This document shows, piece after piece, positions 2,255-7,474 of a DNA stretch of 34,254 nt. The stretch comes from an uncultured Pelagibacteraceae bacterium (GTDB lineage: Bacteria > Pseudomonadota > Alphaproteobacteria > Pelagibacterales > Pelagibacteraceae): the NCBI GenBank assembly GCA_902626045.1, contig CACODU010000007.1, positions 1 to 34,254 of the forward strand, in the 5' to 3' direction. Both the position numbers and the translations under genes were made by a program. The first letter of the stretch is position 1. The number at the start of each line of letters is the position of its first letter. The notes under the pieces were generated by a model. That model saw only the letters and a list, made by a program, of their open reading frames with translations, made no database searches and was not told the origin of the DNA.

Positions 2255-3269
2255 ACTAATAATTAAAACCTTTAAGATCAATGGTTTTGTTTTATCGGAA
2301 CCTGATGTTCTCTTAGATTCAGACTATATCATAGAAAGATCTGGTGAAAAATTTAGAAGTTCAATGCTTACTTTTGATGGTGAGGATGGAAAAACGATGT
2401 GTCTGAGACCAGACTTAACAGTTGCTTCATGTATAAGTTTCTTACAAAAAAAAACTTCCTCAAACATTTATTATTCCGGTCAAGCATATAGAAGATCTGG
2501 CGGTAAAGGTGAAAACTTTATTAATGATCAATTGGGTATCGAAATTCTAGGTTCAAAAAATCTAATTAAAGATGATTTTAAAGTAATCAGCACAATCTTA
2601 AGTTCAGCTAAAAGAATTAAAATGAAAAAAATTAAAATTAAAGTAGGTGACATAAGTTTATTTAAAAATTTAATAAACTCTCTTGAGATGCCTGAAAGAT
2701 GGAAATTAAGATTAATTAGACATTTTTGGAGACCAAGTTACTTTGAAGAACTTTTAAAGAGATTAGAAGAAAATACAGATATTGATGCGGTAACTTTTGA
2801 TGCAGATAAAAAAAGATTTTATGAAATGAAAAAACTAGATCAGGATAAACTGATTGCCGGAAGGTCAGTATCAGAAATTTTAAATAGATTTGATAAGAAG
2901 ATAAAAGATCCAAGATCTTTTGCCGATGGAAAAAAAATTGTAAAAATTATCAAATCTTTTCTTGAAATTAATTGTAAAATATCAGAACTCGACGAAAAGT
3001 TATTAAATTTTGCTAAAAAAAATAATCTGAAAAAAAACATATTTAGAAATTTTCAATCTATTCAAAATTTAAAAAAACTTAATCATGATATTAACTTCAT
3101 CTCAAATTTTGGCAGAGATGTAGAATATTACACTGGAATTGTATTTGAAGTCTTTTCAGGAAAGAAAGAATTTGCTAGGGGCGGTCGTTATGATGATTTA
3201 TTAAAAAGCCTAGGAGCTAAAAAAAATATTCCAGCTGTTGGTGCAGCAATCAATTTAAAAAATATATGA
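2232..3269 (+). CDS. hisZ: ATP phosphoribosyltransferase regulatory subunit (HisRS paralog)
   Basis: HisRS-like fold segments (CLRPDLTVASCISF, YSGQAYRRSG, GRDVEYYTGIVFEVFS, RGGRYDDLL) in a shorter protein directly upstream of a short-form hisG; overlaps the hisS 3' end. Confidence 0.9.
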   Translation: MKSKKLSELIIKTFKINGFVLSEPDVLLDSDYIIERSGEKFRSSMLTFDGEDGKTMCLRPDLTVASCISFLQKKTSSNIYYSGQAYRRSGGKGENFINDQLGIEILGSKNLIKDDFKVISTILSSAKRIKMKKIKIKVGDISLFKNLINSLEMPERWKLRLIRHFWRPSYFEELLKRLEENTDIDAVTFDADKKRFYEMKKLDQDKLIAGRSVSEILNRFDKKIKDPRSFADGKKIVKIIKSFLEINCKISELDEKLLNFAKKNNLKKNIFRNFQSIQNLKKLNHDINFISNFGRDVEYYTGIVFEVFSGKKEFARGGRYDDLLKSLGAKKNIPAVGAAINLKNI

Positions 3270-3943
3270 AAGATTTAATTACTATAGGTTTACCAAGCAA
3301 AGGACGATTAAAAGATAAAGCGATATCATTTTTTAATAATAGAGGGCTTAAAATTTTACAAAGTAGAAAAGAAAGAAATTATTTTGGGACTATTGAAAAT
3401 AAACCCAATATAAAAATTATTTTTCTTCATGCTAAAGAAATCATTCAAAGATTAGCAGATGGAACTTTAGACATAGGTGTATCTGGGTTAGATCTTTTAA
3501 AAGAGTCTGAAAAAAATTTACAAGGTAGAATAAGTTCTCAAAAAAAACTTGATTTTGGTAATGCTAATTTAGTTATAGCAGTACCAGATGACTGGATAGA
3601 TGTGCAGACTATTGCTGATCTTGAAGAGACATCATTTGATATTAGATCTAAAAGAAATGCCAGATTAAGAGTGGCAACAAAATATCCAAACTTGACAAAT
3701 GATTTTCTAATTTCAAAAGGAGTAACCCAATATAAATTAGTATTAAGCCTAGGTGCTACCGAGACTTACCCTTTTATTGGATCTTCAGAAATTATTACTG
3801 ATATTACATCTACTGGAAAAACTTTGACTGATAATAACTTAAGAGTATTGAAGGATGGTCTAATTTTAAAATCAACAGCTTGTTTATTTTATGCAACTAA
3901 AAAAAAAAGAAGATTGCAGCATTTTTTTAAATTATTAGGATAA
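3266..3943 (+). CDS. hisG: ATP phosphoribosyltransferase, short form
   Basis: GLPSKGRLKDKAI..., ADGTLDIGVSGLDLL, FIGSSEIITDITSTGKTL; 225 aa, consistent with a HisZ-dependent short HisG. Confidence 0.95.
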   Translation: MKDLITIGLPSKGRLKDKAISFFNNRGLKILQSRKERNYFGTIENKPNIKIIFLHAKEIIQRLADGTLDIGVSGLDLLKESEKNLQGRISSQKKLDFGNANLVIAVPDDWIDVQTIADLEETSFDIRSKRNARLRVATKYPNLTNDFLISKGVTQYKLVLSLGATETYPFIGSSEIITDITSTGKTLTDNNLRVLKDGLILKSTACLFYATKKKRRLQHFFKLLG

Positions 3944-3950
3944 TTATAAA

Positions 3951-4919
3951 ATGTATTTTAGCAAAAAAAATAACTTTTATCATGGGATAATGTTTCATCA
4001 TTTTCATGATGATAAGTTACATAAATCAAGCCAAGGATCAATAAACAAGGATAACTTTTATAATATAATAAAATTTATAGGAAAAAAAAATATTCTAGAC
4101 GCTAATATTTTTTTTGAAAAATTAAAAGATAATAAATTAAAAGATAATGAAGTTTGTTTTACTTTTGACGATGCCATTAAAAGTCAAATTGATGTTGCAC
4201 TGCCTGTTTTAGAAGATTTAAAAATTAAAAGTTTTTTTTTTATATACACTTCACTGTTCGAAGGCAAACCAGATTATTTAGAAGTTTATAGACATTTTAG
4301 AATGAATTATTTTAATAGTGTTAATGAATTTTATAATTATTTTTATAAAGTTTTAGATAAAGATTTAAAATTATTTTTTCAAAATAATTATCAAAAAATT
4401 AAAGCATTTAAGATTAAAAATCCTTTCTACTCAATAGAAGATATAAAATTCAGATTTGTAAGAAATTTTTTTTTAACAAACGATCAGTATGAAAAAGTAA
4501 TGTTAAGCATGTTTAAAGAAAAAAAAATAAATCCTAATAGCTTAATCAAACAAATTTTATTTGAAAAAAAAGATATTTTAACTTTAGATAATTTAGGCCA
4601 TTTAATTGGTTTACACTCACACGAACATAATACATTTTTTGAAAAATTAAATTTTGATCAACAAAAAAATAGTTATGAAAAATGTTTATCTATTTTATCC
4701 AATATTTTGAGTAAGCCTAAAAATGAGATAAAGTGCATGTCCCATCCATGTGGTAGTTATAATGACGATACCTTAGAAATTCTAAAAGATCTCGGTGTTG
4801 AATTAGGTTTTAAACATTTAATGACAGTTGAGCCTGAAAAAGGTATGAAAAAAATTAATAATTCTTTTTTAGAAATAGCAAGAGAAGATCATACCAACAT
4901 AATTAAAAAAATAATTTAA
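3951..4919 (+). CDS. NodB-type polysaccharide deacetylase family protein
   Basis: Motifs CFTFDDA, GLHSHEHNT and SHPCGSYND match the three NodB metal/catalytic motif positions; no obvious signal peptide. Confidence 0.85.
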   Translation: MYFSKKNNFYHGIMFHHFHDDKLHKSSQGSINKDNFYNIIKFIGKKNILDANIFFEKLKDNKLKDNEVCFTFDDAIKSQIDVALPVLEDLKIKSFFFIYTSLFEGKPDYLEVYRHFRMNYFNSVNEFYNYFYKVLDKDLKLFFQNNYQKIKAFKIKNPFYSIEDIKFRFVRNFFLTNDQYEKVMLSMFKEKKINPNSLIKQILFEKKDILTLDNLGHLIGLHSHEHNTFFEKLNFDQQKNSYEKCLSILSNILSKPKNEIKCMSHPCGSYNDDTLEILKDLGVELGFKHLMTVEPEKGMKKINNSFLEIAREDHTNIIKKII

Positions 4920-5704
4920 TGAAGATTACTTTATTTACGTCAAATAGTGAAAGACACAATTATTTAATTAATTTGTTAGCCCAAATATCTGAAAAACTAT
5001 TCGTTATTCAAGAAAGTAAAATTATTCCACAATTTACACTTAATCCCAACAAGACATCATCAATTATGAAAAAATATTTTGACAACGTTAATAATGCTCA
5101 ATCTAAATTGTTCAACAACTCTTACACGAATATTAAAAAAAAAAATATTAAAGTTTTACCTATCCCATCTAATGATTTGAATAAATGTTCAATGAGCTTG
5201 TTATCAGACTTTCTTAAAAGTGACATTTATATAATTTTTGGTGGTGCTTACATCAAAGGTGAGCTTGTAGATTTCTTAATTAAACAGAAGGCAATTAATA
5301 TTCATGCGGGGGTGTCGCCTTACTATAGAGGCACAGATTGTAATTTTTGGGCTTTGTATGATGGTAATCCACATTTGGTAGGAGCGACAATTCATTTACT
5401 GTCCAAAGGGTTAGATAGCGGTCCAGTAATTTATCATGCTATGTCAAATTTAAAAACAAATCCTTTCGAGTATACGATGTCGACAGTGAAATCAGCATTT
5501 CACTCTGTTGCTGAAAGAATAAAAGATGGTTCTATTTTTAAAATTAAACCAACTGATCAAGATAAGAGTAAAGAAATAAGATATTCGAGAAAAAATGAAT
5601 TTAATGAAAAGATAGTTAAAAAGTACTTTGATAAAGAAATAAATATTAACAATAAAAACTTTGATAACTCTTTATTAAAGGAACCATTTTTTTATAACGA
5701 TTAG
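4919..5704 (+). CDS. Formyltransferase family protein (methionyl-tRNA/sugar formyltransferase-like fold)
   Basis: FGGAYIKGELVDF, AINIHAGVSPYYRGTDCNFWAL and VGATIHLLSKGLDSGPVIYH retain the N-H-D catalytic pattern of N10-formyl-THF-dependent formyltransferases. Starts 1 nt inside the preceding stop. Confidence 0.85.
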   Translation: MKITLFTSNSERHNYLINLLAQISEKLFVIQESKIIPQFTLNPNKTSSIMKKYFDNVNNAQSKLFNNSYTNIKKKNIKVLPIPSNDLNKCSMSLLSDFLKSDIYIIFGGAYIKGELVDFLIKQKAINIHAGVSPYYRGTDCNFWALYDGNPHLVGATIHLLSKGLDSGPVIYHAMSNLKTNPFEYTMSTVKSAFHSVAERIKDGSIFKIKPTDQDKSKEIRYSRKNEFNEKIVKKYFDKEININNKNFDNSLLKEPFFYND

Positions 5705-5750
5705 ATTTCAAATTAATCACTTTTTAATTACTCTTGATTTTTGATTAGAT

Positions 5751-5784
5751 AAAAAAAAGGGCAGTCATTACTGCCCTTTTTGAA
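5751..5784. terminator. Bidirectional intrinsic terminator between formyltransferase gene and groL
   Basis: GGGCAGT-CATT-ACTGCCC stem-loop (5759-5776) flanked by A8 on the left and T5 on the right; works as hairpin plus U-tract on both strands between convergent genes. Confidence 0.9.
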
Positions 5785-5806
5785 TTTTTTTTGAGATTAA
5801 CGGGGA

Positions 5807-7474
<1,668 letters not shown>

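Follow-up and report, generated by a model that had tools for sequence, protein, structure and literature searches.

ArnA and ArnD couple a sugar formyltransferase to a NodB-fold hydrolase in the transient formylation of L-Ara4N. PseJ (PDB 6ci2, 6ci4, 6edk) is an N-formyltransferase of the pseudaminic-acid pathway and travels with a biosynthetic operon. N-formyl legionaminic acid exists in Halorubrum sp. PV6; the available portion of PMC6137143 places a candidate formyltransferase gene for this 5-N-formyl-legionaminic acid pathway in the Leg cluster and names no deacetylase for the N-formyl step. Among CE4 enzymes, the NodB2 layout, in which the MT5 histidine comes first and the arginine has moved elsewhere, is tied only to poly-N-acetylglucosamine de-N-acetylases, while ArnD is classed as NodB1-like (PMC10967932). 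Orphan cassettes that tailor surface sugars are already known, such as epaA-epaB, a two-gene orphan pair modifying a nonulosonic acid (PMC12053666).

Here we analyse a SAR11 gene pair that joins a NodB-type deacetylase to a formyltransferase (FMT); no paper describing such a pair was found in the literature searched, in which subscription journals are poorly covered. It resembles epaA-epaB in being an orphan cassette of two genes that lies apart from the glycan locus and would, in our proposal, alter a nonulosonic acid, although chemistry and enzymes differ and no phage record was found for the SAR11 pair. The proposed product is of the kind known from Halorubrum sp. PV6 (PMC6137143), but the SAR11 FMT has a deacetylase for company, which also sets it apart from PseJ with its operon. 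We propose, with about even confidence, a self-contained, horizontally moving cassette that would replace N-acetyl by N-formyl on an amino sugar of the cell surface, with a nonulosonic acid as the likeliest target; we infer its reaction order, substrate, surface location and benefit.

The locus and its two enzymes

The window is the whole 34,254-nt stretch of DNA analysed, from an incomplete SAR11 (Pelagibacteraceae) assembly (G000; 712 kb, ~67% complete). Its gene order runs hisS-hisZ-hisG, the NodB-fold gene, the FMT gene and then groL on the opposite strand, with the two pair ORFs overlapping by 1 nt (TAATG). The sequence-only reading had described just this arrangement of a NodB-type deacetylase and a formyltransferase between hisG and an opposing groL, and ORFs, Pfam matches and motifs bear it out. 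It had also seen no adjacent glycosyltransferase or sugar aminotransferase, and no glycan gene adjoins the pair at the window locus. The cassette is 1.75 kb long. Foreign base composition was considered and dropped: the GC content of the pair (24.3%, versus 28.1% for the window) is uninformative on foreign origin because 17% of window segments of the same size show GC this low.

Table 1. Features of the pair and its surroundings (positions within the window)
Feature	Position	Strand	Description
hisG	3266-3943		ends 7 nt before the NodB gene
hisG 3' coding end	3896..3943	+	in empty-site relatives contains the terminator hairpin common to hisG and groL; hairpin eroded in the window
NodB-fold (CE4, NodB2-type) deacetylase, no signal peptide	3951..4919	+	322 aa; Pfam PF01522, AlphaFold2 and PDB matches, 24 full-length same-type sequences aligned
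NodB His16, motif MT5	3996..3998	+	N-terminal as in NodB2 topology; invariant in 28 sequences; motif order per PMC10967932
NodB Asp73-Asp74, motif MT1 (TFDD)	4167..4172	+	invariant
NodB His222-Ser-His-Glu-His226, motif MT2	4614..4628	+	H222 and H226 invariant
NodB Arg311	4881..4883	+	may be the catalytic arginine that is relocated in NodB2 enzymes (relocation per PMC10967932; residue assigned by inference); invariant
PseJ-like sugar N-formyltransferase (predicted)	4919..5704	+	261 aa; Pfam PF00551, PseJ sequence and fold match
FMT Asn127-x-His129, catalytic residues	5297..5305	+	N127 in 27/28, H129 in 28/28 aligned relatives
FMT Asp166, third catalytic residue	5414..5416	+	invariant (28/28)
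Bidirectional terminator-like hairpin between pair and groL	5754..5781	.	12-bp stem, T-runs on both strands; surrounding 65 nt fold at -21.0 kcal/mol
groL	5807-7465	-	convergent with the pair

Deacetylase. The protein matches Polysacc_deac_1 (PF01522) above the curated Pfam cut-off (E 6e-14) and contains the motifs quoted earlier for it (TFDDA, HSHEH, HPCGSYND). In an alignment of 28 sequences, H16, D73, D74, H222, H226, P266, G268 and R311 are invariant, and every mark of the NodB2 type in the scheme of PMC10967932 is present: N-terminal MT5, the MT1 Asp-Asp, two MT2 histidines, the MT3 Pro-x-Gly and a relocated Arg. The best PDB matches of its AlphaFold2 model (pLDDT 89.7) are PplD, BpsB, PgaB and IcaB, N-deacetylases with which it shares the fold, the N-terminal MT5 histidine, MT1-MT3 and the relocated arginine; unlike them it lacks a signal peptide, is partnered by an FMT and has ~148 residues separating MT1 from MT2, a stretch modelled mostly as helix. 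By motif order, then, the layout is the permuted one of PgaB/IcaB and not that of the deformylase ArnD. Poly-N-acetylglucosamine is the substrate of the NodB2 enzymes characterised so far (PMC10967932), so a different, cytoplasmic sugar would be a new substrate for this type.

ArnA and ArnD are likewise a formyltransferase and a NodB-fold hydrolase, so the FMT might formylate a sugar amine that the NodB protein deformylates after transfer to a carrier. ArnD does appear in the NodB fold search (E 1e-3), but thirteen CE4 chains, mostly N-deacetylases, outrank it, its NodB1-like class (PMC10967932) does not agree with the NodB2 motif order found here, and the NCBIfam matches of the NodB protein include no ArnD model. 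The pair is not accompanied by a carrier glycosyltransferase, and neither an ArnA oxidase domain nor any other Arn gene lies alongside. We rejected an ArnD identity for the deacetylase on its motif order and on the rank of ArnD behind other CE4 enzymes, and consider transient formylation of the Arn kind improbable.

Formyltransferase. Formyl_trans_N (PF00551) is matched above the curated Pfam cut-off (E 3e-9), and the NIHAG...LDSGPV motifs of the sequence-only reading are found in the protein. Its closest PDB sequence match is PseJ (6ci2/6ci4; E 4e-9, next match 1e-5), which is also the top match by profile and the best fold match of the AlphaFold2 model (pLDDT 91.9), with the PurN, Fmt and ArnA folds ranking close behind. 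The N-x-H, G-x-D-x-N-x-W and LD-x-G motifs are common to both proteins; identity across the fold alignment is ~20%, and the SAR11 FMT is longer (261 versus ~217 residues). Its nearer relatives are the sugar enzymes and not PurN or Fmt, although the latter two have close fold ranks. Structure prediction and profile search, both proposed as checks beforehand, thus gave a CE4/NodB fold and a PseJ-like formyltransferase fold, and in alignments of 28 relatives the catalytic residues of both active sites are fully or almost fully conserved.

The sequence recovered for G000 holds no other PF00551 protein, as might be expected if the FMT were a variant Met-tRNA or purine formyltransferase. We regard that as extremely improbable: the FMT scores 36 bits against the methionyl-tRNA formyltransferase model TIGR00460 (cut-off 201.5), its sole Pfam domain is Formyl_trans_N so that the C-terminal domain of methionyl-tRNA formyltransferase is absent, and a canonical fmt above the curated cut-off, separate from the FMT of the pair, is present in 15 of the 18 pair-bearing genomes. 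Because of this last count, the missing fmt of G000 is probably an assembly gap.

Neither protein has a hydrophobic N-terminal stretch (maximum 19-aa hydropathy over the first 40 residues, -0.63 for the NodB protein and 0.69 for the FMT). This accords with the earlier statement that no signal peptide is apparent, and is consistent with a cytoplasmic location for both.

Recurrence and chromosomal sites of the pair

One genome per species was scanned, yielding 38 FMT-related loci. In 34 of these the FMT gene is immediately preceded by the NodB gene, so the pair does recur in other genomes, a check that the sequence-only reading had asked for. The remaining loci are one ended by a contig edge (L064), one fragment (L068) and two FMTs without a NodB neighbour (L040 and L058). 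The L068 fragment (398-733, 65% identity) is from a record labelled as a Gammaproteobacteria MAG and may be a binning error. L045 has two NodB genes (3034-4002, 5033-6004) next to one FMT.

A close FMT relative occurs in 18 of 297 family genomes sampled. Outside the family such relatives are rare: 385 genomes sampled across the class gave three others (one being the L040 genome), and 299 sampled across the phylum gave two weak ones. Public genome sets are rich in incomplete single-cell genomes, so absence carries little weight. For the relatives, ORF calling was mechanical, and neighbourhood counts throughout were taken across related genomes, uncorrected for shared ancestry. Two FMT relatives outside the family keep a NodB neighbour: in L111 the pair is beside a gene recognised by eye as rpoD-like, and in L112, a non-SAR11 alphaproteobacterium, it lies with glycosyltransferase-like and NeuA-like genes (both by eye) and an FkbM methyltransferase gene.

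NodB and FMT distances correlate (Mantel r 0.73), as common host ancestry could also bring about. A second NodB type, ~27% identical, stands beside a conserved FMT in four loci, a single swap on the tree; the deacetylase step was therefore kept when the protein was exchanged. Further FMT subfamilies also have NodB next door, with either gene first (L019, L026, L030, L112). That the two genes have unrelated targets and merely travel together would suit L040 and L058, but given the 34 adjacent loci, the exchange of NodB type beside a retained FMT and the other subfamilies, we find it quite improbable, more so than the Arn-like scheme. None of the three outcomes that the sequence-only reading had listed against itself was encountered, these being no co-occurrence elsewhere, a broken active site and a non-sugar FMT.

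Among 29 close relatives for which hisG was retrieved, hisG and groL are back to back in 25. The expectation that this interval is empty in close relatives holds for those 25; the other four junctions are filled with cargo unrelated to the pair, namely two genes, one of which was scanned and gave no recognised domain (L099), a segment that includes a type III restriction-like helicase and two DNA methylases (L100, 685-6594), a short-chain dehydrogenase (L101) and a TylF-type methyltransferase (L102). Because the cargo differs among these relatives, the hisG-groL junction is an insertion hot spot, and from L100 one that also accepts restriction-modification genes.

The best 30-nt hairpin in the hisG 3' coding end has an energy of -10.7 to -17.4 kcal/mol at all 25 empty sites and is weaker in all five occupied junctions, the window included (-3.1 to -9.9; -3.1 in the window). 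With this hairpin weakened, hisG transcription would run into the pair, which has a new hairpin behind it. The strong terminator previously noted after the pair is thus present, with one correction: it differs in sequence from the hisG-end hairpin, which is the terminator in empty-site relatives and is eroded here. In SAR11 relatives (L070-L098), a bidirectional hisG/groL terminator is encoded within the coding end of hisG.

Elsewhere the pair is near tmRNA (L036, L045, L032) or near 5S rRNA and tRNA genes (L059, L061, L049), or lies between typA and groL (L033), and other copies sit in glycan clusters. On the FMT tree, in which many forks are poorly supported, the site class, taken as inside or outside a glycan cluster, shifts at least nine times. 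From its varying chromosomal sites (for which see also PMC4033161, in the part that cites Wilhelm et al.), the pair is a travelling cassette. This and the insertion hot spot, together with nonulosonic acid as the likely substrate class, go beyond the sequence-only reading.

The tmRNA-adjoining arrangement is found at L036:6902-7196 and L045:6828-7127. In L037 a second, degenerate sequence like a tmRNA end lies downstream of the FMT gene, as at an integration site. In L032 a 154-bp direct repeat (4867-5020, 6857-7011) brackets the pair exactly and has only these two copies in that genome; a shared mobile-element end was rejected, the repeat being absent from four other genomes searched, including that of the window. 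Phage origin was likewise rejected, with no relative among viral contigs (pattern search) or 50,697 phage records and a weak cyanophage PurN-like PHROG as the sole viral-side match. A phage-defence system was rejected too, no PADLOC model matching down to E 0.1.

Glycan context and the proposed exchange

Where the pair lies inside a glycan cluster, its context points to surface sugars, the direction that had been suggested from the sequence. One or more of neuA, neuB and neuC lie within ~6 kb at 11 of the 38 loci, the window locus not among them, and the cluster identities confirmed are NeuB, a WbuX-type amidotransferase and PseB. PseB and a sugar aminotransferase accompany the SAR11 pair that diverges most (L067), and larger stretches from three more genomes (L113-L115) have neuB in the same region. 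In 18 other SAR11 genomes with more distant FMTs, neuB is at most two genes away in 12, NodB adjoins in four (each also with neuB), and a DUF4910/DUF2172 metallopeptidase-like protein adjoins in seven. The genome of the window itself encodes NeuB, NeuC and NeuA on contig C28. NeuB presence was discarded as an association test: it is found in 16 of 18 pair-bearing genomes, but is so common in SAR11 (215/297 family genomes, some with several copies) that the count is weak evidence. Just upstream of the pair in L042 is a polysaccharide-lyase-like gene (PF14099; 3952-4935).

On gene neighbourhood, the substrate class is likely a nonulosonic acid rather than UDP-GlcNAc. The same acetyl-to-formyl exchange could instead act on another common amino sugar (UDP-GlcNAc-derived, LPS-core or perosamine-like). 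Many pairs sit alone and so fit any common amino sugar, GlcNAc-based ones included; most travel alone, for which the substrate must be widely available, and L047, L059 and L061 are in glycan clusters by epimerase/dehydratase or glycosyltransferase genes with no neuA/B/C nearby. Against this, the closest solved relative of the FMT is PseJ and the recurrent neighbour of related SAR11 FMTs is neuB, and we hold such a substrate to be rather unlikely.

In the nonulosonic acid scheme, the cytoplasmic NodB2-type deacetylase would strip N-acetyl from a sugar already produced by SAR11 cells. A nonulosonic acid (sialic, legionaminic or pseudaminic type), free or linked to a nucleotide or lipid, is the likeliest candidate. 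The PseJ-like enzyme would then move formyl from N10-formyl-tetrahydrofolate onto the freed amine, and the resulting N-formyl sugar would be exported to the cell surface.

An exchange is favoured over chance linkage because SAR11 FMTs repeatedly pair with two unrelated hydrolase-like proteins, NodB and DUF4910. FMT genes next to DUF4910/DUF2172 are seen at L023, L024, L025, L027, L028, L029 and L135, sometimes with neuB. This adjacency suggests that DUF4910 could be a sugar-amide hydrolase. DUF4910 has been placed near N-acetylneuraminate synthase, with sugar-amide deacylation allowed as one possible role, in a paper whose main text does not contain 'formyl' (PMC4000134). More tentatively, we suggest a general post-synthesis sugar editing by a hydrolase plus a formyltransferase, which may have arisen with the two unrelated folds and would give strain-level surface variants without change to the main glycan locus.

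The biosynthesis of N-formyl nonulosonic acids is known only in part, and the pair offers one route to them that can be tested; it also hints at what DUF4910 proteins may do. SAR11 bacteria rank with the most numerous in the ocean, and it is their surfaces that phages and grazers encounter. If the proposal is true, a 1.75-kb mobile cassette altering one chemical group would be a cheap source of surface variation in streamlined genomes.
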